A stretch of 64,000 nt of DNA from Pirellulales bacterium (GTDB lineage Bacteria; Planctomycetota; Planctomycetia; Pirellulales; Thermoguttaceae): contig JAFGRD010000100.1 of NCBI GenBank assembly GCA_016935315.1, forward strand, positions 1 through 64,000, read 5' to 3'. This document shows, piece by piece, positions 1 to 15,500 of the stretch; the first letter of the stretch is position 1, and the number at the start of each line of letters is the position of its first letter. The notes under the pieces were generated by a model. It searched no databases and had not been told where the DNA came from. It worked only from the letters and a program-made list of their open reading frames with translations. Both the position numbers and the translations under genes were made by a program.

Positions 1-1
1 A

Positions 2-640
2 CAGTTGGCCTCGGTGGCCGCCGAGCTGGCCGAAGCCCAAGGCAAACTGGCGGAAGGTGGCACGGCGGATCCCGAGGCAGGCAGCCAAATCGAGGAGATT
101 CTGGAAGAGATTCGGCGGGATCGCGACGAGCTGCGCCAAGCCCAGGAAGCAGCTCGCGGCCAGGCCGAACAGTTGGCCTCGGTGGCCGCCGAACTGGCCG
201 AAGCCCGCACAAGGTTGGACGAAAACGGTGTCGCGTCGGTCGAAGGCGACGCACAGCTCCAGCAAGAGCTTCGTAATCTGGAACGGCAACACGCGATGTG
301 GGACCAGGAGCGGACCGTTCTGGAGTCGGAATTGGAGGCGGTTCGCAGCCGGGCGGCGGAGATGTCCGACGCCTTGGCCGATCAGAAGCGCGTCGCGGCG
401 CAACAGCAGGCCCAATGGGCCGAAGAACTCAAGCAGATGCGGCATCTCTTGGAGACCCTGTCGCGCTGCCTGTCCCAAGGAGGGCCGGCGGCGGTGGCCC
501 AGCCCCAGTCGAGCCCGCCTCCGTCGGCGTCCACCGCCCCGCAGCCGGGGACGAACGGCGATCCGGTGCTCGACTCGGTGATGGCCCAGTTCGAGATGCT
601 GCAGAAAGACCTTGCCAAACGACGGGGAACGAAATCCTAG
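2..640 (+). CDS. Coiled-coil protein, C-terminal part (5' end outside window)
   Basis: This open frame runs in from the left edge, so only the last ~212 residues are seen. The visible part is almost entirely Glu/Ala/Leu/Gln/Arg-rich heptads typical of a long coiled coil. It is followed near residue 155 by a Pro/Ala/Ser-rich linker and a short charged tail. A unit beginning QLASVAAELAEA occurs at bases 2-42 and again 168 bp (56 residues) later, so the protein contains internal coiled-coil repeats. No enzymatic motif is visible. It lies 67 bp upstream of the FGS-like gene on the same strand and may belong to the same unit. Its role is unknown; a scaffold is a guess from shape alone. Confidence 0.7.
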   Translation, partial: QLASVAAELAEAQGKLAEGGTADPEAGSQIEEILEEIRRDRDELRQAQEAARGQAEQLASVAAELAEARTRLDENGVASVEGDAQLQQELRNLERQHAMWDQERTVLESELEAVRSRAAEMSDALADQKRVAAQQQAQWAEELKQMRHLLETLSRCLSQGGPAAVAQPQSSPPPSASTAPQPGTNGDPVLDSVMAQFEMLQKDLAKRRGTKS

Positions 641-707: not shown

Positions 708-1967
708 GTGCTACTACTCAACCACTGCGTGATCCTCGCCACGACGATGCTGCTGAGTCTGACCAATCTGGGTCTTGGCTGGTGGACATACAACACGTTC
801 CTGGCCTCCGGCGGGGCCATCGGACTGTGCTACGTTTTGGCGCGCGTGGTCCGCCGTCGTCGTGGAGCGCGGCGGCAAGCCACCGGAATCCAGGTCCCCG
901 CGGCACCGCGCCCGCGGCTGAAGTCCGCCGCCGGGCCGGTCGATCCGAGCGACACGGCCGGGCTGGTGGAGCAGATGTTGGCCCAGGGACGTTTTGCGCT
1001 GCTGCTGCGCCCCCAAATCGCCGACAACCTAAGCGATGTCCACTACCGCCACACGTTGGAGACACTCCAGGAGGCGATGGCTCTGGTCCCCGACGGCGAG
1101 GTCGTTGTGGGCCGGATCGACCAGGCGCTGGACGACGGCAAGCTGAATGACGATGAGATCAACTCGGCTCAAGGCCGGGTCGTCCGCGTGCAACGCTTCT
1201 TTCTGGACCGCTACCCGGTGACCAACCGGCAATTCTACGAATTCGTTGCTGCGGGAGGCTATCAACAGGTGTCCTTGTGGGATCGCTCGATTTGGCCGGC
1301 CGTGCTGGACATGGTCGATCGCACCGGCTTGCCGGGGCCGCGTTTCTGGCAAGACGGCTGCTTTCTGTCCGGCGAGGACGATCACCCGGTGGTGGGCGTT
1401 AGCTGGTACGAGGCGAGTGCCTATGCCCGCTGGATCGGAACGCGGCTGCCCAGCGACGCGGAGTGGGCCAAGGCAGGCAGTTGGCCCGTGCCCTTGTCGG
1501 CCACGTCGCGGATTCAACGCAAGTACCCTTGGGGCGAGAACATGGATCGCACCCGGTGCAATCTATGGGGCTCGGGGCCGAATCGGGTCGTGTCGGTCCA
1601 CGAGTTCGCCGAAGGCGTGAGCGTCGGGGGCGTGTACCAGTTGACCGGAAACGTCTGGGAGTGGACCAGTGCCAACTTCCGCGCTGGCGATCATCCCTCG
1701 GGCGATCTGGTGCTGCCAACGCCGATGAAGAGCATTCGCGGCGGTGCGTTCGACACGTACTTTGACAACCAGGCTACCTGCCAGTTCCAGAGCGGTGAGA
1801 GCCCGCTAGGGCGAAGACACAATATCGGATTCCGCTGTGCGGTCGGAGTGGGCGACCTCGCCCTGGCGCGTTCGGCAGCGGCTGGCGTGGGACCTGAGGC
1901 CGGCGCGCCGCCGGCGCCGCAGGCCGACGAGACAGAAGCTCCCCTTGCCGAGGAGGTGCACGCATGA
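708..1967 (+). CDS. Membrane-anchored FGS/SUMF1-like protein, probably non-catalytic
   Basis: A 419-residue protein. The GTG start at 708 was chosen because GGAG lies just upstream at 698-701; the frame is open further 5'. One or two membrane helices occupy about residues 5-45, followed by a basic cluster (RRRRG). A formylglycine-generating-enzyme-like fold follows at about residues 150-380, with YPVTNRQFYEF, GVSWYEASAYARW, RLPSDAEWAKA, YPWGE, LTGNVWEWT, RGGAF and GFRCA. In the catalytic loop after RGGAF the redox cysteine pair of true enzymes is absent and only one nearby Cys remains, so sulfatase activation is unlikely. Its stop overlaps the ATG of the GTPase gene (ATGA), implying translational coupling. 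FGS domains without catalytic residues occur in predicted NTPase conflict systems. Confidence 0.8.
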   Translation: MLLLNHCVILATTMLLSLTNLGLGWWTYNTFLASGGAIGLCYVLARVVRRRRGARRQATGIQVPAAPRPRLKSAAGPVDPSDTAGLVEQMLAQGRFALLLRPQIADNLSDVHYRHTLETLQEAMALVPDGEVVVGRIDQALDDGKLNDDEINSAQGRVVRVQRFFLDRYPVTNRQFYEFVAAGGYQQVSLWDRSIWPAVLDMVDRTGLPGPRFWQDGCFLSGEDDHPVVGVSWYEASAYARWIGTRLPSDAEWAKAGSWPVPLSATSRIQRKYPWGENMDRTRCNLWGSGPNRVVSVHEFAEGVSVGGVYQLTGNVWEWTSANFRAGDHPSGDLVLPTPMKSIRGGAFDTYFDNQATCQFQSGESPLGRRHNIGFRCAVGVGDLALARSAAAGVGPEAGAPPAPQADETEAPLAEEVHA

Positions 1968-2884
1968 CCAAGGCCGCCATTCAGCCGCTGGAATCCTACC
2001 GGTTGGCCAAGTACGCGGTCCCGATCGCCTGCTACATTTGCGAGACGGACAATACGTTCGACTGCGAGTTCTGCAGCCATTGTGCGGCGCCCATGGCGTT
2101 GGCACATCAGACCAACGACCAGAAGGTTCAGCCGCAAATGGTCGGGGTCATCGGACCCAGCAGCGTCGGGAAGACGGTGTACCTGGGCATGTTGATGGAC
2201 ATGCTCTCGCGGCAGCCGGAACGGCTGCACCTGCTCGCCCGGGGCGCCTTCTCGATCACCCTGCAGCAGACCACGCTCTCCGCGCTGTCGCGGTGCGAGT
2301 TTCCCCACAAAACACCCAACGAGCCGGACCGCTGGAACTGGGTTCATTGCCAAATCCGGCGTCCGCGACAGCGGCGCCCCCTGGAACTGATCATGCCCGA
2401 CATGGCCGGCGAGGCCGTGATCGAGGAAATCGACCATCCTCACACCTTCCGCGTCGTGCGCTCGTTCCTGGAGAAGTGTACGGCCGCGATGATCCTCATC
2501 GACGCGATCCAGGTCAAGGAGGGAGGACGGGACCAGGACTTCTTCACGATGAAGCTGCTGAGCTACCTGAGCGAGCTGGACAACGATCCAAAGCAGGGGT
2601 GGGCCAAGCGGCCGGTGGCCCTGATCTTCAGCAAGGCCGATCAGTGCGAGCAGTGCATGGAAGACCCCGATGCCTACGCCAAGATGCACGCCGCCGGATT
2701 GTGGCAGTATTGCCGGGAACGATTCGTTTGCCACAAGTTCTTCGCCTCCGGGGTGGCCGGAGCCTGCGCCGCGCGCGAATCGCTGTTGGACGGGCACGTC
2801 GAGGTGCCGCTGCGGGTCGAGCCTCACGGCATCGTGGAGCCGTTTGAATGGCTGCTGCAGAATCTCCTCGCCAGGCAGGGATGA
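1964..2884 (+). CDS. Zinc-ribbon P-loop GTPase (double-GTPase / DO-GTPase-like)
   Basis: A 306-residue protein that starts on an ATG overlapping the previous stop. Residues ~23-42 hold two CxxC-type pairs (CYIC, CEFCSHC), a likely zinc ribbon. A Walker A motif GPSSVGKT lies at ~64-71. A Walker B-like PDMAG lies at ~145-149, and a G4-like SKAD at ~225. This order fits the TRAFAC-type GTPases named double-GTPase in predicted bacterial conflict systems; the exact subfamily is inferred. The next gene resembles GTPase-associated protein 1, the usual partner of that group. No transmembrane segment is seen, so it is likely cytoplasmic and may be recruited to the FGS membrane protein. Confidence 0.75.
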   Translation: MTKAAIQPLESYRLAKYAVPIACYICETDNTFDCEFCSHCAAPMALAHQTNDQKVQPQMVGVIGPSSVGKTVYLGMLMDMLSRQPERLHLLARGAFSITLQQTTLSALSRCEFPHKTPNEPDRWNWVHCQIRRPRQRRPLELIMPDMAGEAVIEEIDHPHTFRVVRSFLEKCTAAMILIDAIQVKEGGRDQDFFTMKLLSYLSELDNDPKQGWAKRPVALIFSKADQCEQCMEDPDAYAKMHAAGLWQYCRERFVCHKFFASGVAGACAARESLLDGHVEVPLRVEPHGIVEPFEWLLQNLLARQG

Positions 2885-3042
2885 GCATTTCACCAGGAAC
2901 GTATTTCGAGCGTCAACACACGTTTCAAGCGGGCAGGCCGCCCAAGGCGGATCAGCCGAAACGAGAGTCGAACAAGGGGTGGAGCCGCGTTAGAGTTTCC
3001 GTTGTCGAACTTGTCCAAGAAGACTCGTAAGCACCTAAACGA

Positions 3043-4467
3043 ATGGCATACCTCGAACAAGCCGTCTTCACTTCGGCCGAGACCAGCCGGTCGGCCGGTT
3101 ATCAAGTGGTCGCCCGCAGTCCCGGAATCTGCGAAGCGGACGCCCGGGACCTGTCCATCTGGGGCCCGTCGCACGATTCGATGTTGGAGCTGGGCCCCGA
3201 TGCGGCCAGCATCAACTTCTTCCCGCTTTCCAGCGGCAGTTTCTGCGTTTCCCGAACGACGCCCGCGGGATGGGAATACAGCGGCCGCGGCGGCTATCGC
3301 ATCTACACCCACTGTCTGGTCGTGCCGCCGGAGGTTCTCGGCCGGTTTGCCAACAATCCCTTTGCCGTGGTCCGTGCGGCCCAGGCCAGCGGATGGCTCG
3401 AGGTCCCCGAGAGCATCCCTCATCGGCTCGAGCCGGTCCACATGGCGGGCGGGGCCGCCTCGGTCGACCAGACCTTGCTGGTCCGGCTGGCCGGCAACCC
3501 CGGCGCGTCCCAGGTCGCCGCGCTGGTGCAAGCGGCCCTCGATTCGCCCCGCGTGGCAGTGGCCGGCAAGCCGTCGGCCGGGGAACTGATCGCCGGCCTG
3601 TTCAGCTGTTTGCCGATCGAATGCCGTCGCGAGTTCTCTTTCTCGACCGGCTTGAAGTTCTCCTCCCGTCGGCCGTTTCGTATCATCTCGCTTTCCGGCG
3701 ACCGCACCGAACAGCGCTGGATTGCAAATCAGGACAACATTACGGTGCTGCACCTTGGCGACGGCCCGCCCGATGAAGCCCTGCCCAGAGACGGCTGGGG
3801 CCGTCTGATTGAACGGGTGCTGGCGTCGGGGCGGACGTCGTTCCTGGCCACCCAGTTGTCCAAACGGCGTTTTCACCTCTCGCTCGATGATCTGTCCGCG
3901 TTGGGACTGCAATTCCTTGAAGAATTGGACGCGTCGTCCTTGCGCAAGGACCACGCGCAGCAAGGCGACTCCGACGCCGCCCATGCCGTCGGATCGGGCG
4001 GCGACGACTCGTGCGAAGAGCAGGACGTCGAAGACTCGGGAGTTGCCGGTCCGGATTCCGCCGAATTGCCGGACGTTCAACACGCCCACGCGGCCCACCA
4101 TCGCTTCGAGTCGACCGGCGCAAACGCCTCCGTATCGAAGGTCAAGACGATCGGACCGGCCAGGACGCTTGACCCCAACTCGCCGAGCGTTCTGGAGAAA
4201 CTGGAACTGCTCGACGATCTGGTCTACGAGGCGGTCGGCGGACAGACGGCCGCTCTGGTGCAACTGAAGCAGTTGTGGCCGGAGGTTCTTGCCGAACTGG
4301 GAGAGCAGTTGGTGGCCGAGTCGCGCGAGCAGTACTTGCGCTACGCACTGCTGATCTGGGAGGAGAGCGTCGACCACGGCAGCATCCGCGACCCGGCCCG
4401 CGCCGTGCAGGCCCTCGACGTGCTCTGCGTGCTGTTCGACGAGCCCCAGGCAGTGTCGGACGACTGA
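3043..4467 (+). CDS. GTPase-associated protein 1 (GAP1)-like protein
   Basis: A 474-residue protein that follows the GTPase gene after 158 bp. The N-terminal ~280 residues have the look of the GAP1 N-terminal and middle regions, with YLEQAVFTSAETSR, GYQVVARSPG, LSIWGPSHD, GGYRIYTHCLVVPPE and FSFSTGLKFSSRRPFR. About residues 300-380 are acidic and low in complexity. The last ~90 residues form a compact helical tail. Genes of this family are known mainly as neighbours of double-GTPases, and they were proposed to regulate or couple to the GTPase. That matches the position here. Function in the cell is unproven, and the family call is from memory of its motifs. Confidence 0.7.
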   Translation: MAYLEQAVFTSAETSRSAGYQVVARSPGICEADARDLSIWGPSHDSMLELGPDAASINFFPLSSGSFCVSRTTPAGWEYSGRGGYRIYTHCLVVPPEVLGRFANNPFAVVRAAQASGWLEVPESIPHRLEPVHMAGGAASVDQTLLVRLAGNPGASQVAALVQAALDSPRVAVAGKPSAGELIAGLFSCLPIECRREFSFSTGLKFSSRRPFRIISLSGDRTEQRWIANQDNITVLHLGDGPPDEALPRDGWGRLIERVLASGRTSFLATQLSKRRFHLSLDDLSALGLQFLEELDASSLRKDHAQQGDSDAAHAVGSGGDDSCEEQDVEDSGVAGPDSAELPDVQHAHAAHHRFESTGANASVSKVKTIGPARTLDPNSPSVLEKLELLDDLVYEAVGGQTAALVQLKQLWPEVLAELGEQLVAESREQYLRYALLIWEESVDHGSIRDPARAVQALDVLCVLFDEPQAVSDD

Positions 4468-8505: not shown

Positions 8506-8610
8506 TGATTGACGCTTGCACACTCAATGCGCGAGGGCGACCAACGGGAACTCGAATGGTCCGGCCTCCCGTTGGTCGACCTCGATCATTCACCATGCAT
8601 ACATCAATAA
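8506..8610 (+). repeat. Dispersed MITE-like element, copy A
   Basis: About 105 bp. The outer ends ATTGACGCTTGCA and TGCATACATCAAT form imperfect terminal inverted repeats (10 of 13). Inside, CGACCAACGGGA (8538-8549) pairs perfectly with TCCCGTTGGTCG (8567-8578). The right end overlaps the 3' end of the outer-membrane factor gene and supplies its TGA stop. Three further copies lie at 28424, 54920 and 63048. Confidence 0.85.
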
Positions 8611-10319
8611 GTTATGTTGTTGAGGTTGGCCGGCGGCGCCGGCATGGCGGGTTGGGGTCGTGGTTGGGGAATCGGCTGGGCTGGCAGGAGGGGCTCTTCC
8701 TGGAACGGTGTGCTATTCGGGGGCACTGCCGCCGCCGGACCGGGCCGAAAACGCATCTGCCATCCCCCTCCGAGGGCCTTGTACAGCGTGACCAGGCTCA
8801 AGGCCACTTTTCCGCGGCTTTCGGCCAGTGTGTCCTGCTGTAGAACCAGGGCCCGTTGGGAGTCGAGCACGCGCTGGAAATCGATCAGCCCCTGCTGATA
8901 TTGGGCGTTGGCAAGTGCCACGGCGTCGGCCGTGGCGCTGGAGCTTATCTGGAGCGACTTCACGCGTTGCTGTTCACCCAAATAAGCCGCAATCGCGTTC
9001 TCCACTTCTTCGTTCGCGCGAAGGACTGTTTCCTGGTATTGGAGCACGAGCTGGCGAAATCGGGCGTCCTGCACGTCGATGCCGTTGCGGATGCGACCGT
9101 AGTTGAGGATGTTCCAGCGGAAGCCGGGGCCTACCATGCCGGCGATGCTCCCTCCCTTGAAGAGGTCGTCGAACCGCTCGGCTTCGAAGGCAATGGTGCC
9201 GGTGATCGCGATATGCGGATAGAGCTCGCTCTCGGCGACGCCGATCAGGGCGCACTGCGCCGCGGCCTGGCGTTCCGCGCGACGCACGTCCGGGCGGCGG
9301 CGCAGCAGGTCGGCCGGAATGCCCACGGCCACCTCCGGCGGCGGGCTGGGGATGCGGCCGGAATGTCCAAGCTCAGCGCCCACCTCCGCCGGCGGCATCC
9401 CCAGCAGGGTACAGAGTCGGTTCTGCGTTTGGCGATGCGCGGTCTGCAGCACGGGGATCAGCGACTCGGTGGCGCCCAGGATCGACAGCGCCTGCTTCAC
9501 GTCCAATTCGCTCACCACGCCCTGGTTGAACCGATCCTGTGTGATGCGGAAGGTGTTCTTCTGGATCTCCACGTTCTTGCGGGCCAGCGCCAATCGGTCC
9601 TCCAGAGTCCGCAGTTGAATGTAAGTCGCCGCTACTTCGGCCTGGAGAATCACCAGCGCATCGTCGTAGTTCTCGATCTGGGCGTTCAGACTGGCGTCGG
9701 CCGACTCCACTGCACGGCGAAAGCGTCCCCAGAAATCGAGTTCCCAAGCGGCGTCAAAGCCCGCCGACCATGTGTCAAAGGCCATCTTCGGCAGCGGAAA
9801 CTCCCCGAAAGGAAACGAATTCTCGCTGAGTTGGCTGCGCGAGAAGGCGCCGATGGCCCGCTGTTGCTGTGGCAAGAGACTCCCGCGGGCCACGCCCAAT
9901 TGGGCCCTGGCCTCGAGCACGCGCATGCCGGCGATCTTCAGCGGCAAGTTCTGCCGGTAGGCCACTTCGACCAGCTCATTCAGAACGGGATCGTCAAACG
10001 TGGCCCACCAATAGCTGTAGTCGGCCGCCTGCGACCGGAGATTGCCGTCTTCGCCGTCGATCCACCCGTCGGCCACGGGGGCCGGCAGTCGGCAGTAGTC
10101 CGGCCCGACCTTGAAGCCGTTGCGGACCCACTGCACCGGACCGGTCGTGCACCCGGCGTTGGGAAGCACAATGGCCAGTAGCAGAGCCACGCCCGCGATC
10201 ACCCGGACCGGCACGACGGCAAATCGCAAGGATTGACTCGGGCCAGGCCTTTTGCCCTCGGCTGCCCTGATATCCTCGGAAGGACTGACGTGGGCCTGAT
10301 TGACCGTCCGCGTGACCAT
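8604..10319 (-). CDS. RND efflux outer-membrane factor lipoprotein (TolC/NodT family)
   Basis: A 571-residue outer-membrane channel of a tripartite RND pump. The N-terminus is basic and then hydrophobic, ending in a lipobox-like ...LPNAGC at about residues 51-56. Two OEP repeats follow, with VGPDY at the first, ...FDAAWELDFWGRFRR and QARLGVARG/ALSILGATE-like helices. The second half contains GIPADLLRRRPDVRRAERQ and QYQQGLIDFQRVLDSQRALV, both diagnostic. The proline-rich tail is unusual. The ATG at 10319 was chosen over the ORF start 15 bp upstream. The stop codon lies inside repeat copy A. It is divergent from tetR, adaptor and pump genes and would complete that system. Confidence 0.92.
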   Translation of the reverse strand: MVTRTVNQAHVSPSEDIRAAEGKRPGPSQSLRFAVVPVRVIAGVALLLAIVLPNAGCTTGPVQWVRNGFKVGPDYCRLPAPVADGWIDGEDGNLRSQAADYSYWWATFDDPVLNELVEVAYRQNLPLKIAGMRVLEARAQLGVARGSLLPQQQRAIGAFSRSQLSENSFPFGEFPLPKMAFDTWSAGFDAAWELDFWGRFRRAVESADASLNAQIENYDDALVILQAEVAATYIQLRTLEDRLALARKNVEIQKNTFRITQDRFNQGVVSELDVKQALSILGATESLIPVLQTAHRQTQNRLCTLLGMPPAEVGAELGHSGRIPSPPPEVAVGIPADLLRRRPDVRRAERQAAAQCALIGVAESELYPHIAITGTIAFEAERFDDLFKGGSIAGMVGPGFRWNILNYGRIRNGIDVQDARFRQLVLQYQETVLRANEEVENAIAAYLGEQQRVKSLQISSSATADAVALANAQYQQGLIDFQRVLDSQRALVLQQDTLAESRGKVALSLVTLYKALGGGWQMRFRPGPAAAVPPNSTPFQEEPLLPAQPIPQPRPQPAMPAPPANLNNITY

Positions 10320-10457
10320 TATGTACCCCCCCAATCCTTAGGACTCGCCTTGTCGCCAAATCCGCTTTTCTCTGCATCGGCCTAATTTCTGGCACATTCG
10401 CGTTCAATCGGCAGAAGCAGGAGAAGTTCACCCCCCTAATGTGGCTGGGTCGCGTGG

Positions 10458-10480
10458 AAATACCGTCAGAAACGGCATTT
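10458..10480. promoter_or_regulatory. Imperfect dyad between outer-membrane factor and tetR genes
   Basis: AAATACCGT-cagaa-ACGGCATTT is a 9+9 bp inverted repeat with one mismatched pair. It lies 14 bp left of the operator pair and ~140 bp upstream of the outer-membrane factor start, a reasonable place for control of that divergent gene. Binding by any regulator is inferred. Confidence 0.4.
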
Positions 10481-10492
10481 ATTATCGTTTTC

Positions 10493-10533
10493 GACCGATG
10501 GGTCTTGACGGATGACCGAAAGGTCACAATAAT
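10493..10533 (+). promoter_or_regulatory. tetR promoter with two tandem GACC-N4-GGTC operators
   Basis: A -35 TTGACG (10505-10510), 17-bp spacer and -10 AATAAT (10528-10533) form a good sigma70-type promoter. Two identical palindromes GACC-N4-GGTC occupy 10493-10504 and 10514-10525. Their centres are 21 bp apart, i.e. two helical turns. The second, extended to TGACC-GAAA-GGTCA, fills the promoter spacer, where a bound repressor would block polymerase. This fits autorepression by the TetR protein encoded 70 bp downstream. Confidence 0.6.
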
Positions 10534-10605
10534 TGACCGTGTAGTTTTGGGCCTGGAAGAAGAGGAGTCTGCCAGGGCTTTTTGGCCACTGTCCGGGAGG
10601 GAATG

Positions 10606-11214
10606 ATGGCTCGACTTGCCGAGCGACGTAAGAGGCTCGTGACGTCGATGATGAAGCAGGGCATTTACGAGGCGGCCGTGGCAGTGCTTACACGCTACGG
10701 GCTGGAAGGCACGACGATGGACCGGGTGGCCGAACAGGCGGAGGTCGCCAAGGGAAGCCTGTACAAGTACTTTCAGAACAAGGTCGAACTGCTGCAGTTC
10801 GTCCACGAGCGGCTTTTGGAGCCGCTGCGGGAGAGCTCGCAGGAGATTCTGGACGAGGATCTGTCGGCCTTGCCGAAGCTCGAAGCGCTTCTGCGGCACT
10901 GGTTCGAGTACCTTCAGGAACACCGAGGGCTGTTCAACTTCTTCTTCGTCGACCATGCCGTGCGCGCGTTGTTGAGAGACCACGACAGAACGGGGCGGAC
11001 ATCCGCTGTGCAAGACCTGGCCTTGATTATCCGGCAGGGCATCGAGGAGGGGGGCTTCCGAAGGGTCGACGTTTCGTTAACGGCAGAACTGTTGTTTGGC
11101 GCGGTGCGCGACGTGTGTGAGCAACGCATCGAGACGGACGCGGCACTGCCGATCGACCAGTTGATTGAGGGCGTGATGGACTTCTTTCAGCACGGGGTCG
11201 GCGCAGACGAATGA
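10606..11214 (+). CDS. TetR/AcrR-family transcriptional repressor of RND efflux
   Basis: A 202-residue regulator. The N-terminal helix-turn-helix is evident (residues ~20-65: ..GLEGTTMDRVAEQAEVAKGSLYKYF.. split over two helices), followed by an all-helical ligand-binding region with TetR C-terminal character. The ATG at 10606 lies 5 nt after GGGAGG; an adjacent ATG at 10603 is the alternative. It stands directly before the efflux adaptor and pump and opposite their outer-membrane factor, so it likely represses this efflux set and itself through the palindromes in its promoter. The ligand is unknown. Confidence 0.9.
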   Translation: MARLAERRKRLVTSMMKQGIYEAAVAVLTRYGLEGTTMDRVAEQAEVAKGSLYKYFQNKVELLQFVHERLLEPLRESSQEILDEDLSALPKLEALLRHWFEYLQEHRGLFNFFFVDHAVRALLRDHDRTGRTSAVQDLALIIRQGIEEGGFRRVDVSLTAELLFGAVRDVCEQRIETDAALPIDQLIEGVMDFFQHGVGADE

Positions 11215-11241
11215 GGCACGACGCGACAGGTTCTTTTCGCG

Positions 11242-11275
11242 GCCTCCGTGCAACCTGCGTCAGTTGCACGGAGGC
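11242..11275 (+). terminator. Strong hairpin between tetR and adaptor gene
   Basis: GCCTCCGTGCAAC and GTTGCACGGAGGC form a perfect 13-bp stem around an 8-nt loop, starting 28 nt after the tetR stop and ending 54 nt before the adaptor start. No T-run follows directly, so it could be a weak terminator, an attenuator or an RNA-stability element that sets different levels of regulator and pump. Confidence 0.55.
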
Positions 11276-11329
11276 TAGATGGCATGTTTTCTCTTGAGGA
11301 TCGTCGCGAGAAGTGGGAGGCAATTGCTG

Positions 11330-12574
11330 ATGTGTGCACGAAGGCTCATGAGAGGAAGAGGCTTTGCGATCTTTGCCGGTCTGCTCGCCTGTGCCCTTGC
11401 TGTGGCCATGGCGGTGGGAGTCGGCGTTGTTTGGCAAACGCGGAGTGCCGCGGCGGATCCTCAAGAAGGCACGGGTTCCCGGACGGACCAGACCGGCGAG
11501 AAGCGGGTTCCGGTCGTGCTCACGCCGGCCAGGGCAATGACCTTCGAGAGTTGCGTCGTCGTGTCGGGAAGCGTGCACGCCAAGCAGTATGCCATGGTGT
11601 CGGCTCGCATCCCGGGTACGCTCGATGAAGTATTCGTCGACGAGGGCGACCGAGTCGAGGCCGGCACGACAAAGCTCTTCCAGACCGACTCGCTGAAGCT
11701 CAGCAAGGCAGTCGCTATCGCCAGGCAGGATCTCGCGGTGGCCGAGGCTTCGGTGCAGGAGAAGCTGGCGCTGGTCGATAAGGACGTTGCCGCGCATGAA
11801 CAGGCCCTGAACGACCTGAACCGCTACCGAGAACTCCTGAAGACCAACGCCATCGCCGCCCAGGTCGTCGAGCAGCAGGAGTCGAAATTGCGGCAGTGCG
11901 ACGCGGACGTGAAACACACGCAGGCGTTGACCGACTTGTCCAAAGCCCAACAGGAACAAGCCCGGCTGAACCTGACGATCGCGGAGAAGGATTTGGCCGA
12001 TTCGCTGGTCTTGGCGCCCATCAGCGGGTGGATATCGGAGCGTTTTCGCGAGCCCGGCGAAATGGCCGGCGCCGGAACGCCGGTCCTGCGGATCGAGGAT
12101 ACCTCGGTCGTGGAGATCTCGGTCTTCTTGCCCGAGGAACACTACGCTCATGTTCTGCCCGGGAAAACGAAAATGCGGGTCCGCGTGGGAAGCATCGACC
12201 TGGGTGAGCACACCGTGAGCTACAAGAGCCCCACCGTCAACCAGAAGCTGCGGACCTTTGCCGTGAAGGGTCTGGTCGAGTCGCCGCCGGAGGGTGTGGT
12301 GCCCGGCTGTCTGGCCCAAACGGCGATTGTTACCGACAGCGGCCAGGGCATCGGGGTCCCATCCGAAGCCGTCCAAACCCGGGGTGGCAAGAGCATCGTG
12401 TTCACCCTTGCCGAAGGCAGGGCCAAGATGGTCCCGGTCGAGACGGGCCGTGACCTGGATGGTTGGCGCGAGATTCTCGACGGTCTGAACTCCGGCGTGC
12501 CGGTGGTATCCATGGGCCAATTCCTGGTGGAAGAGGGCACGCCGGTTGCAGTCGTCGGGGAGGACGCTCCATGA
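11330..12574 (+). CDS. RND efflux periplasmic adaptor (membrane fusion protein)
   Basis: A 414-residue HlyD/AcrA-type adaptor. The ATG at 11330 follows GTGGGAGG by 9 nt. A single N-terminal membrane helix (residues ~12-35) anchors it. A lipoyl half-motif follows (SARIPGTLDEVFVDEGDRVEAG), then a long alpha-helical hairpin (about 130-235), the second lipoyl half (LVLAPISGWISERFREPGE, cut here) and beta-barrel and membrane-proximal domains. Its stop overlaps the pump start (ATGA), so the two are translationally coupled. It would bridge the inner-membrane pump and the divergently encoded outer-membrane factor. Confidence 0.93.
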   Translation: MCARRLMRGRGFAIFAGLLACALAVAMAVGVGVVWQTRSAAADPQEGTGSRTDQTGEKRVPVVLTPARAMTFESCVVVSGSVHAKQYAMVSARIPGTLDEVFVDEGDRVEAGTTKLFQTDSLKLSKAVAIARQDLAVAEASVQEKLALVDKDVAAHEQALNDLNRYRELLKTNAIAAQVVEQQESKLRQCDADVKHTQALTDLSKAQQEQARLNLTIAEKDLADSLVLAPISGWISERFREPGEMAGAGTPVLRIEDTSVVEISVFLPEEHYAHVLPGKTKMRVRVGSIDLGEHTVSYKSPTVNQKLRTFAVKGLVESPPEGVVPGCLAQTAIVTDSGQGIGVPSEAVQTRGGKSIVFTLAEGRAKMVPVETGRDLDGWREILDGLNSGVPVVSMGQFLVEEGTPVAVVGEDAP

Positions 12575-15500
12575 TTCTGTCCGACGTTTCGGTACGCCGG
12601 CCGGTGGCGATGGGCTGCCTGATCATCGGGCTGGCATTATTGGGGCTCAGTGCCTTTCGCAAGATGGGCCTGGAGATGATGCCCAAGCTGGATGCCCCTT
12701 TTGTCACCGTCGTCACCATTTATCCCGGGGCCTCGCCCGAGGAGCTGGAAACCGACGTGGCCAAACGGATCGAGGACGCGGTGGTGGCGATCGACGGGCT
12801 GAAACACGTCAACTCGACCTGCATGGAGAACGCTTGCCAAACGCTGCTGGAATTCCAGATGGGCGTCGACGTGGACGTGGCGGCCACGGACGTCCGCGAG
12901 AAGATCGACCTGATCCGGGCCGAGATGCCGACCGACGTCGAGGATCCGATCATCCAGAAGTTCGACATCAACGCCACACCGATCGTCAATCTGGCGTTGA
13001 CCGGCGACGTTCCGCTGGACGCGTTGTACGACTATGCCGACAACACCCTTTCCGATCGGATCACGGTCATCTCGGGCGTGGCCGAGGTGCGGCTGATCGG
13101 CGGCGCCGAACGCGAGGTCCACGTCACGCTGAATCGCGAGAGGCTGGCCGCTCGAAGCCTTTCCAGCATGCACGTGGTGGGGGCCATCCAGAACGCCGTG
13201 CGGACGATCCCCTCCGGCCGCGTGCGGGACGATCGGTCGGAATACGCGGTCAAGTTCGACGCCGACTACGACCGCGTTGCCGACCTGGCCGATCTGGAGG
13301 TGGCCAATGAGGATGGGCACCGTTGCCACATCCGCGACGTGGGCCAGGTGGGCATGGCCACCGAGGAAGTCCGCCAGATGGCCACCATCGACGGCCGTCC
13401 TTGCGTGGCCATCAAGGTCATCAAGAAGGCCGACGCGAACGCGGTCCGCGTGGCCGACGCCGTCCGCGACGCGATGAGCAAGCTCAATGAGGAGTTGCCC
13501 GGCGGCATGGAGCTGGTATGGGTCGACGACGACGGCCGGTTCATCGAGGCCAACAACGAGAGTGCCTGGATCAACGTGTTGCAGGGCATCCTGTTGACCG
13601 CGGCGATCCTGTTCCTGTTCCTCTACAACTTCCGCTCGCTGTTCGTGGTGGCCGTGACCATGCCGCTGACCATCGTCATCGGCCTGTTCTTCATGCAGAT
13701 GGCCGGGTACACGCTGAATATGTCGACGTTGATTGCCATCGGCATGTCGGTGGGGATCCTAGTAACCAACTCGATCGTGGTGCTGGAGGCGATCGTCAAG
13801 CGACTGGACGAGAGCGGCGATCCCAAGGGGGCCTCGCGCTTGGGCGCCAAAGAGGCCTTCATCGCCGTGCTGGCCAGCGCCGGCACCAACGTCGTCGTGC
13901 TCTTCCCCCTGGCAACCATGAGCACGAAGCTCGGCATGTTCATCGGCCCCCTGGCAATGACCATGTTCATCATGACGGTCGTTTCACTGTTCATCTCCTT
14001 CACCCTCACGCCGCTGCTCTGCTCGTTGATCCTTCGGCCGCGCAAAGAGGGCTCGCGGTCGCCGCTGGCGGTAATGGAGCGGGGCTGGAACTGGGGATTC
14101 GATCGCGTGGTAACCGGTTACCGCCGCCTGCTGGAGTTCACCGAGCGCCACCGCTGGGCGGCCGTGTTGACGCTTGTCGTGGTTCTCGGCGTCTTCGTCC
14201 ACTCGCTCCGTCTGGCGGGCACGCTCGGTTCCAGCGCCTTTGCCGAGAGCGACATGGGCCGGGTCTACCTCCGGTTGGAGTTTCCCCCGCGCTACAACCT
14301 CAAGGAGACCGTCCGCCGCGCCCGGCAGGCGGAAGCAAGAATCAAGGACTTGCCGGAGCTGAAACACGTGCTGACCACCGTCGGCAAGGTGGAGGCCATG
14401 CTGGGACAGTCGAGCGAGGGCGTCTATCTGGCCCAGATCCTGATGAAGTTCTCCGAGCGCGACCAGCGGAAGATGACCATCGACGAGTTGATGGACCTGG
14501 TCCGCTCGCGGATGGAAGGCTACCCCGATGCGATTATGGCCGTCAGCCTGCCGTCGATTATCGGCGGCCAGAGCAACCCGGTGGAGTTGGAGATCGCCGG
14601 CGACGACCTGACGACGCTCGACGGGCTGGCACTGAGGACACTTCGTCTGGCTCGGGAAACGCCCGGAATTCTCGACCCCGACACCACCGTCCGGCCGGCC
14701 AAGCCGGAGATCCGCATCCAGCCCCGCCGGGCCGTTCTTAGCGACCTGCGATCGCCCGCCATCGGCCTGGGCATGGCGTTGCGCGCCAATCTCGAAGGCA
14801 TTGAGGCCGGGACCTACAAGGAGAACGCCCGAAACTACGACATCGTCGTCAAGTTGACCGAACAGCAGGGCAAGGACCAGATCGACGAGTTCCTCTTCCC
14901 GGGAGCCGACGGTCATCCGGTCCTGTTGGCGAATCTCGGCGAGGTAATCGCGGACGAAATGCCCATCCAGATCGTCCGCAAAGACAAACGCCGCATCTCC
15001 AAGCTGACCTCGCAGTTGGCCGACAGCCTCCCGCTGGGAATCGCGGTCAACCAGATCAGTCAAGCGATCGACGAGAAGGGCAATCTTCCTCCCGGCTACA
15101 GCTACTCGTTTGCCGGCATGTACGAGATGATGGAGGAAGGGCAGCAGGGCCTCGGCGAGGCCGGTATCACCGCAGTCGTGCTCATGGTGCTCACGCTGGC
15201 CGCCATTATGGAGTCGTTCCGGCAACCGGCTCTGATCCTGATCACGCTTCCCTTGGCGCTGATCGGCACCACCTGGGCCTTGGCCCTGGCCGGCGAGAGC
15301 TTCAGCCTCTTCGTGATCATGGGCATCGTGATGATGGTCGGCATCGTGGTCAACAACGCGATCCTGATCATCGACCAGTTCAACGTCCACGTCGCCGAAG
15401 GTATCCCTCGACACAGGGCCATGGTCACGGCAGCCTGCGAGCGTTTCCGCCCCATCGTGATGATCACGCTGGCTGCCGTGTTGGGCATGTTGCCGTTGGC

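Follow-up and report, generated by a model that had tools for sequence, protein, structure and literature searches.

A conserved planctomycete gene block with a zinc-ribbon GTPase and a longin–DENN-like candidate regulator

The 64,000-nucleotide stretch of Pirellulales DNA analysed here (the window; bases 1–64000 of the 146 kb contig C142, from a draft genome of 7.1 Mb in 172 contigs) begins with four plus-strand genes that stand, in the list of open reading frames (ORFs), in the order CC–FGS–GTPase–GAP1. They encode a coiled-coil protein (CC), a probably membrane-anchored protein with an FGE-sulfatase fold (FGS), a zinc-ribbon GTPase of the DO-GTPase type and a GTPase-associated protein 1 of the GAP1-N2 type (GAP1). 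From sequence comparisons and structural models, we propose that the block specifies a mainly vertically inherited, membrane-linked GTPase switch in which GAP1 would act on the GTPase via an arginine, R82, most likely as a GTPase-activating protein (GAP); we put the probability of this reading at roughly 0.52. Gene content, order and conservation, a GTPase tree that for the most part follows taxonomy, the predicted folds, the missing cysteines of FGS and the joint loss of the R82 loop and the GTPase are directly supported, and from these we infer GAP activity, complex formation, topology, binding partners and cellular role.

The arginine loop of GAP1

The GAP1 gene (3043–4467) matches Pfam GAP1-N2 at 1.4e-16 (61.2 bits against a cut-off of 24). 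In the predicted model of the protein, a loop of the form E-Y-S-x-R (E78-Y79-S80-G81-R82 in the window, 3274–3288, with R82 at 3286–3288) lies between predicted strands 67–77 and 85–94. R82, the candidate arginine finger, is present in 72 of 72 clusters of GTPase-paired GAP1 proteins (removal of copies left 75 distinct sequences, which formed 72 clusters at 95%) versus none of six close orthologues from genomes lacking the GTPase. Thirty positions in GAP1 1–240 are conserved in at least 90% of 95 paired rows and only S80 and R82 are lost in all six orthologues; R82 was picked from this same conservation table, that is, after looking. An earlier candidate for the finger, R86, failed, as it is arginine in 58 of 94 paired rows.

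In L051, an orthologue that neighbours the window GAP1 in the tree (61% identity), just two of the 30 conserved positions are changed, S80G and R82H. With duplicates removed, L051 has three changes at 29 positions (one, at 47, being common to the window) and a second orthologue, L044, has four. The simple-draw chance, from 30 positions, of the changes falling in the loop is 0.023 for L051 and 0.0025 for L044 and is somewhat larger without duplicates; the rows are related and these figures are not true probabilities. Two separate losses are favoured by the GAP1 tree, one in L044–L047 with L049 (100/99) and one in L051 beside the window GAP1 (93/97). The six genomes concerned gave no match to this GTPase and no DO-GTPase2 match over the cut-off, with one weak partial match in G013; all six are drafts, that of L051 (G025) being 94% complete. 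Across the phylum, the pattern [DE][YHF][STV]xR occurs in 21 of 25 loci with PF20013 matches, and three of the 21 (L299, L301 and L308) come from genomes that also have this GTPase.

Arginine fingers on longin domains have precedents in eukaryotes: that of NPRL2, Arg78, sits on a longin-domain loop (PMC8534245), whilst that of SMCR8, Arg147, is supplied by the longin domain (PMC8213707). A conserved loop arginine on the longin part, as in these GAPs, is also what we find in GAP1, on its predicted fold.

The predicted fold of GAP1

We modelled GAP1 with AlphaFold2 (mean predicted local distance difference test score, pLDDT, 81.3; predicted template modelling score, pTM, 0.64). Residues 1–290 of the model are longin–DENN-like, residues 317–373 have a pLDDT under 50 and a helical C-terminal region spans about 381–465. 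When the model was compared with solved structures using Foldseek, the sole match at E up to 0.001 was a chain of the FLCN–FNIP2 complex (8.4e-4), followed by further FLCN–FNIP2 chains, TagF, the Lst4 longin domain, DENND10 and GATOR1 chains. VIA-align, given residues 1–290, placed DENND1A first (Z 8.6, root-mean-square deviation (rmsd) 5.1, 243 residues aligned), then DENND1B (Z 8.3), DENND10 (8.0), TagF (6.8 over 236 residues) and chains of the FLCN–FNIP2 complex (6.6 and 6.5); below these came GATOR1/SEA complex chains and then Lokiarchaeal, Lst4 and Ykt6 longin domains. The 15 best VIA-align rows are all DENN proteins, longin domains, longin-bearing complex chains or TagF, and unrelated rows score Z 5.2 or less; the table labels complexes rather than subunits, and the lack of a fold from the list is no evidence against that fold. 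It is on the uniformity of the match list and the length covered that the modelled longin–DENN likeness rests.

Sequence comparison of GAP1 and TagF with hhalign gave probabilities of 0.1% and 1.5%, neither of them significant; the alignment at 1.5% places D-Y-S-G-R of GAP1 on D-x-x-G-R of TagF. Separately, of 15 TagF loci from other planctomycetes, 12 (L310–L319, L321 and L324) carry D-x-x-G-R ahead of an [FY]P stretch, resembling the GAP1 loop, the other three being a wrong ORF or giving no match. Among the open-licence papers listed for these families, none was seen to connect GAP1 with longin–DENN proteins.

Other roles for GAP1

Several observations weigh against the proposed switch. On the side of the fold, the Foldseek list also mixes in Bcs1 and LOV/PAS chains, the VIA-align rmsd values for the FLCN–FNIP2 chains are 28.7 and 28.6, the DENN scores (Z 8–8.6) are slightly above the best Z of 7–8 typical of models without a clear match, and when GAP1 was compared with the sequences of solved structures, neither a longin nor a DENN chain turned up at E up to 10. 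As to the loop, in L044–L046 (one genus) it is shortened and has an arginine in place of S80, possibly a shifted R82; a single loss is found in 4% of bootstrap trees and the fully supported branches force only one loss. R82 is also kept in two of 14 far GAP1 proteins that do not adjoin this GTPase, a set that does not make clean controls, several of the genomes carrying DO-GTPases elsewhere. In TagF, S79, D81 and R85 are required for binding to Fha, which is not a known GTPase (PMC5995506); from their spacing, these residues probably correspond to those of the stretch S-x-D-x-x-G-R, and by analogy R82 could have a role in binding instead of catalysis. The pairing itself is imperfect: the GTPase occurs without GAP1-N/M in L204, L206 and L207, in L274 and in three family f5 loci, and because GAP1 persists in the six close orthologues without the GTPase, it would have another role besides that of GTPase partner. 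Finally, 53 FGS proteins could be tested at their N-terminal regions, and in nine of these no hydrophobic segment was seen.

Two alternatives draw on these points. GAP1 might be a guanine nucleotide exchange factor (GEF) or an effector of the GTPase, with R82 a binding residue in a DENN-like contact: DENN-type Rab GEF domains are among the top fold matches, the DENND1 proteins being exchange factors, longin domains are used by GEFs too (PMC8534245), and the TagF loop is needed to bind a partner. A GEF requires no arginine finger, however, and an invariant loop arginine that is lost along with the GTPase fits the finger of a longin GAP, for which reason we think an exchange or effector role unlikely. 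It also seems improbable that GAP1 is a non-catalytic adaptor whose longin–DENN likeness reflects a common arrangement of sheet and helices. The moderate Z scores, the lack of a sequence match and the persistence of GAP1 without the GTPase would suit an adaptor; against it stand the uniformity of the 15 best structural matches and the specific loss of the loop, L051 having changed only S80 and R82 of the 30 positions.

The zinc-ribbon GTPase

The GTPase gene (1964–2884) matches Pfam DO-GTPase1 (5e-13) and DO-GTPase2 (1.2e-12) with 49.4 and 48.4 bits against a cut-off of 27, and overlaps the FGS gene by 4 bp (ATGA). Residues 23–40 (2030–2083) form a putative zinc ribbon, CxxC...CxxC, whose cysteines are almost without exception retained: C37 and C40 in 95 of 95 rows, C23 and C26 in 94 of 95, and all four in seven of seven further rows as well as throughout a 21-row alignment. 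The P-loop, G64–T71 (2153–2176), has G64, G69, K70 and T71 in 95/95 and 7/7 rows, and beyond the cysteines and GKT, conservation extends to D146, G149, K224 and D226. The model of the protein is closest to Rab32 (Z 17.4), YcjX, Arl2 and Rag/Gtr; since none of the 999 chains in the comparison scored below Z 8, it indicates a Ras-like protein and nothing narrower. Between the 95 GTPase rows with GAP1-N/M and the seven without, seven of 58 conserved positions are lost in most of the seven rows and six of these lie at residues 96–159, a weak signal given that the seven rows are deep branches.

Distribution and inheritance

The genes grouped in the original prediction co-occur very strongly across planctomycetes. 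Scanning named genomes with the GTPase alignment gave 63 loci, including L190 of the cultured Blastopirellula marina DSM 3645, which holds the block, all with planctomycete titles but for one Nealsonbacteria bin and one plain 'bacterium'; the scan used exact peptides and so favours close kin. In loci with room on the contig, FGS adjoins the GTPase gene in 62 of 62, CC is present in 53 of 53 (49 by hidden Markov model (HMM), four by eye) and GAP1 lies at the GTPase gene in 58 of 61. Genes in relatives were called with a codon-score caller made for this analysis, and several starts are unsure.

Of the 61 genomes (40 genera) sampled within the family, 47 from 32 genera have GAP1, counting distant forms, and 26 from 23 genera have the GTPase, one by a weak match; at least 19 contigs are common to the named-genome and family sets, which are not independent. 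Class-wide, the GTPase was detected in 53 genomes out of 248 with E up to 1e-20. From these 53, twenty loci were sampled: FGS is adjacent in all 20, GAP1-N/M is present in 16, three have just a GAP1-C match and one has no GAP1, and CC was found by HMM in eight. In L275, L276 and L277, from family f5, the GAP1-C match is a small separate ORF beside the GTPase gene, without GAP1-N/M; L133 has CC and FGS followed by a GAP1-C match and no GTPase, and L134 a GAP1-C match alone. When 294 genomes from across the phylum were sampled, 22 of them had GAP1-N2.

In a tree of the GTPase (62 rows, 61 of them different), ten family labels need ten label changes, where the minimum is nine and shuffled labels give a mean of 34.1. 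Families f2 and f8 are split and transfers are possible in these two. Genomes with the GTPase are the larger ones (medians 5.6 Mb, n = 25, versus 4.2 Mb, n = 36; p 1.6e-5), a difference to which draft completeness may add. Among viral contigs there was no confirmed relative. The block has the look of a module that was passed on mainly by vertical descent and lost from smaller genomes, and not that of a mobile island.

This bears on whether the block serves in conflict. The original prediction had linked its families to published NTP-dependent systems, rightly so: the same core families make up the GAP1-N2 systems that Kaur et al. (2020; PMC7159879) tied to multicellular habit and conflict, and planctomycete versions with FGS 'effectors' are already mentioned there. 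In a phage-defence system of this type, FGS, proposed elsewhere as an invader-sensing lectin (PMC8195603), would sense the invader, GAP1 and the GTPase would set a threshold and an FGS/CC assembly would respond. The patchy presence of the GTPase in the family would suit such a system, as would the flanks: of 104 proteins there (from L033–L058), five match PADLOC models such as PD-T4-6, and two match Pfam AAA_21, described by Pfam as a putative AbiEii toxin. Generic kinases account for most of the flanking PADLOC matches, however: the PADLOC families listed (25 of 69) each match five flanking proteins at most, mostly the same five, and a Pfam protein kinase domain is present in five of the 104.

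Within the block, FGS, the GTPase and GAP1 matched no PADLOC family at E up to 1, and CC gave weak matches to coiled-coil-rich models only (best 7.6e-6). No nuclease or toxin family was found over the cut-off in the four proteins with Pfam and NCBIfam, in agreement with what had been noted at the outset. The window GAP1 is alone in its own draft genome, where no further GAP1-N2 was found, and the DNA of the locus was not met a second time in the 40 candidates scored out of 139. Loss through genome reduction would fit the smaller size of the GTPase-less genomes. A defence role is weakened because composition is fixed, inheritance is largely vertical, no viral relative was confirmed and FGS is not hypervariable, and we regard it as rather unlikely. 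Of the 'conflict or signalling' originally suggested, it is the second half, with a membrane-linked sensor, that fares better.

FGS and CC

The FGS gene (696–1967, with TTG at 696 or GTG at 708 as the likely start) matches Pfam FGE-sulfatase at 2.1e-41, well over the cut-off. Of the families originally anticipated, FGE-sulfatase, DO-GTPase1/2 and GAP1-N2 were recovered, whilst GAP1-M stayed under its 24-bit cut-off in the window GAP1 (0.0021, 18.7 bits) and no GAP1-C match is listed there, though the C-terminal region is conserved in relatives. The trio's adjacency, the overlap of two of its genes and the position of CC upstream, all part of the original prediction, are borne out by the ORFs and by Pfam.

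Two hydrophobic segments, at about 705–761 and 795–851, lie in the N-terminal part of the window FGS. Among 62 FGS N-terminal regions, taken from stop to stop and therefore with approximate starts, 23 have two such segments, 21 one and nine none, and nine are cut. Such segments are absent from the GTPase, GAP1 and the window part of CC. On alignment to the formylglycine-generating enzyme (FGE) 6muj, both cysteine positions, which we take to be the catalytic pair, correspond to a gap and a phenylalanine in the window FGS, and with the FGE cysteines absent the idea that FGS is an active formylglycine-generating enzyme was dropped. The motif DTYF is invariant across 18 FGS rows and the C-terminal region is strongly conserved rather than hypervariable. 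Given this conservation and the lack of any reverse transcriptase (PF00078) match in its own draft genome, FGS was also dropped as a product of a diversity-generating retroelement, and with no reverse transcriptase found, the role of a diversified receptor is an unlikely one for it.

The 3' part of CC occupies the window from before position 2 to 640, its 5' end being off the contig; its order and strand match those in relatives. Across relatives CC has a conserved N-terminal domain, then a coiled coil that is repetitive, and at the C terminus a conserved peptide, the last of these recognised in the window from the tails of relatives as DPVLDSVMAQFEMLQKDLAKRR (560–625, plus strand). The tail pattern is present in 36 of 48 tails; of the other 12, 11 are similar by eye and L210 is weak. 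Among the proteins accepted as CC by eye, L206 has the tail motif, the tails of L207, L194 and L199 are basic but resemble it only weakly, and L202 was counted on a weak match to the N-terminal domain alone. In five loci with GAP1 but without FGS and the GTPase (three from one genus), CC is only 94–110 residues long and the C-terminal peptide is lost. Because CC shortens and loses its tail where GAP1 alone is kept, this suggests that its N-terminal part serves GAP1 and its tail FGS or the GTPase.

These features can be assembled into a working model of the proposed switch. FGS, with a hydrophobic hairpin at its N terminus as membrane anchor and its non-enzymatic lectin-like domain cytoplasmic, would act as a platform or as a ligand-binding sensor. 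The zinc-ribbon Ras-like GTPase would be the switch itself; GAP1, as its longin–DENN-like cognate regulator, would bind the switch regions and insert Arg82 from the longin loop, stimulating GTP hydrolysis. The long CC might tether the parts, its N-terminal domain engaging GAP1 and its C-terminal peptide FGS or the GTPase. The output would likely be local organisation of the envelope or membrane and not killing.

Upstream and flanking genes

Window positions 12–98 are matched at 98% identity by the end of another contig of the same genome (C5:107902–107988, in L327; the genome was searched with window 1–400). At the end of C5 a CC reading frame opens with an N-terminal domain resembling that of relatives' CC proteins, and the CC gene is apparently split between C5 and C142, the join being deduced from sequence rather than assembled; internal repeats of CC are perhaps the cause of the break. 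Further upstream on C5 (L327:6270–9093) are a glycosyltransferase gene and a radical-SAM gene. Both are found at the same place in L035, L036, L038 and L039, where the homologues are 50–54% and 66–70% identical, and other relatives have different genes there. An effector upstream of the window, as first suspected, did not materialise: C5 shows the 5' part of CC and these two genes, with no toxin or nuclease seen upstream of CC.

Outside the block, no constant neighbour was found among the relatives. The PlsC and CdsA genes that lie downstream were considered as possibly linked to the block, an idea that was dropped when tblastn of both against the 40 loci of family f1 gave no match at E 1e-3. 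Further into the window, 8604–14000 holds an outer membrane efflux protein, a TetR regulator, a HlyD-type fusion protein and an AcrB-type pump, by appearance an ordinary resistance–nodulation–division efflux cluster.

Relation to known systems

The closest known relatives are the GAP1-N2-type DO-GTPase systems of Kaur et al. (2020; PMC7159879), which likewise place a zinc-ribbon DO-GTPase beside a GAP1-N2 protein and include a planctomycete FGS variant. Those systems are described as having variable effectors, fibronectin type III (FNIII) repeats and a part in conflict, whereas the block has a near-fixed CC–FGS–GTPase–GAP1 composition, nearly constant across loci where a highly variable effector might have been expected. 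Pfam found no FNIII-repeat protein among the block proteins, and FNIII is absent from the 25 listed of 133 Pfam families matched by the 104 flanking proteins; FNIII repeats are described for GAP1-N2 systems in general, and the section of Kaur et al. on them leaves unstated if the subset with FGS includes such a component. CC may be listed in the figures or source data of that paper, in which the DO-GTPase–GAP1 pair is said to have no close relatives elsewhere; its main text has no mention of longin, DENN, folliculin or GTPase-activating, and both its uses of 'arginine' concern MoxR.

With the eukaryotic longin–DENN regulators (DENND1/10, FLCN–FNIP and C9orf72–SMCR8, along with the longin-bearing NPRL2/3), GAP1 shares a predicted longin-then-DENN order, an arginine on the longin loop and a Ras-like GTPase as partner or neighbour. 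It differs from them in being bacterial, in showing no detected sequence similarity and in its extra helical C-terminal region. TagF, a repressor of type VI secretion, resembles GAP1 in its fold score and in having D-x-x-G-R in the stretch that hhalign sets on the GAP1 loop, but its known target is Fha, no GTPase, and the hhalign probability was low. MglA–MglB is likewise a bacterial pair of a Ras-like GTPase and its GAP, the GAP belonging to the roadblock/longin-related class (PMC3521125), but MglB is a roadblock protein and GAP1 has a two-part longin–DENN-like body in an FGS/CC setting. The block is of a known kind, and what is new is its fixed four-gene form, the predicted longin–DENN-like fold of GAP1 and the proposed R82 mechanism.

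More speculatively, GAP1-N2 proteins, and TagF with them, might be a bacterial longin–DENN lineage, in which a Rab/Rag-type GTPase, an arginine-finger GAP, a membrane platform and a CC tether would together organise planctomycete membranes; we hold this broader view only tentatively and consider it somewhat doubtful. Planctomycetes are known for unusual internal membranes. 'GTPase-associated protein 1', a name that carries no biochemical mechanism in the text of Kaur et al. (2020), becomes a candidate GAP with a named residue. The mechanism would likely extend to the wider GAP1-N2 family, with TagF flagged as a possible relative and, if the proposal is true, there would be DENN-like control of GTPases in bacteria, where the FLCN, GATOR1 and C9orf72 class could then be modelled.

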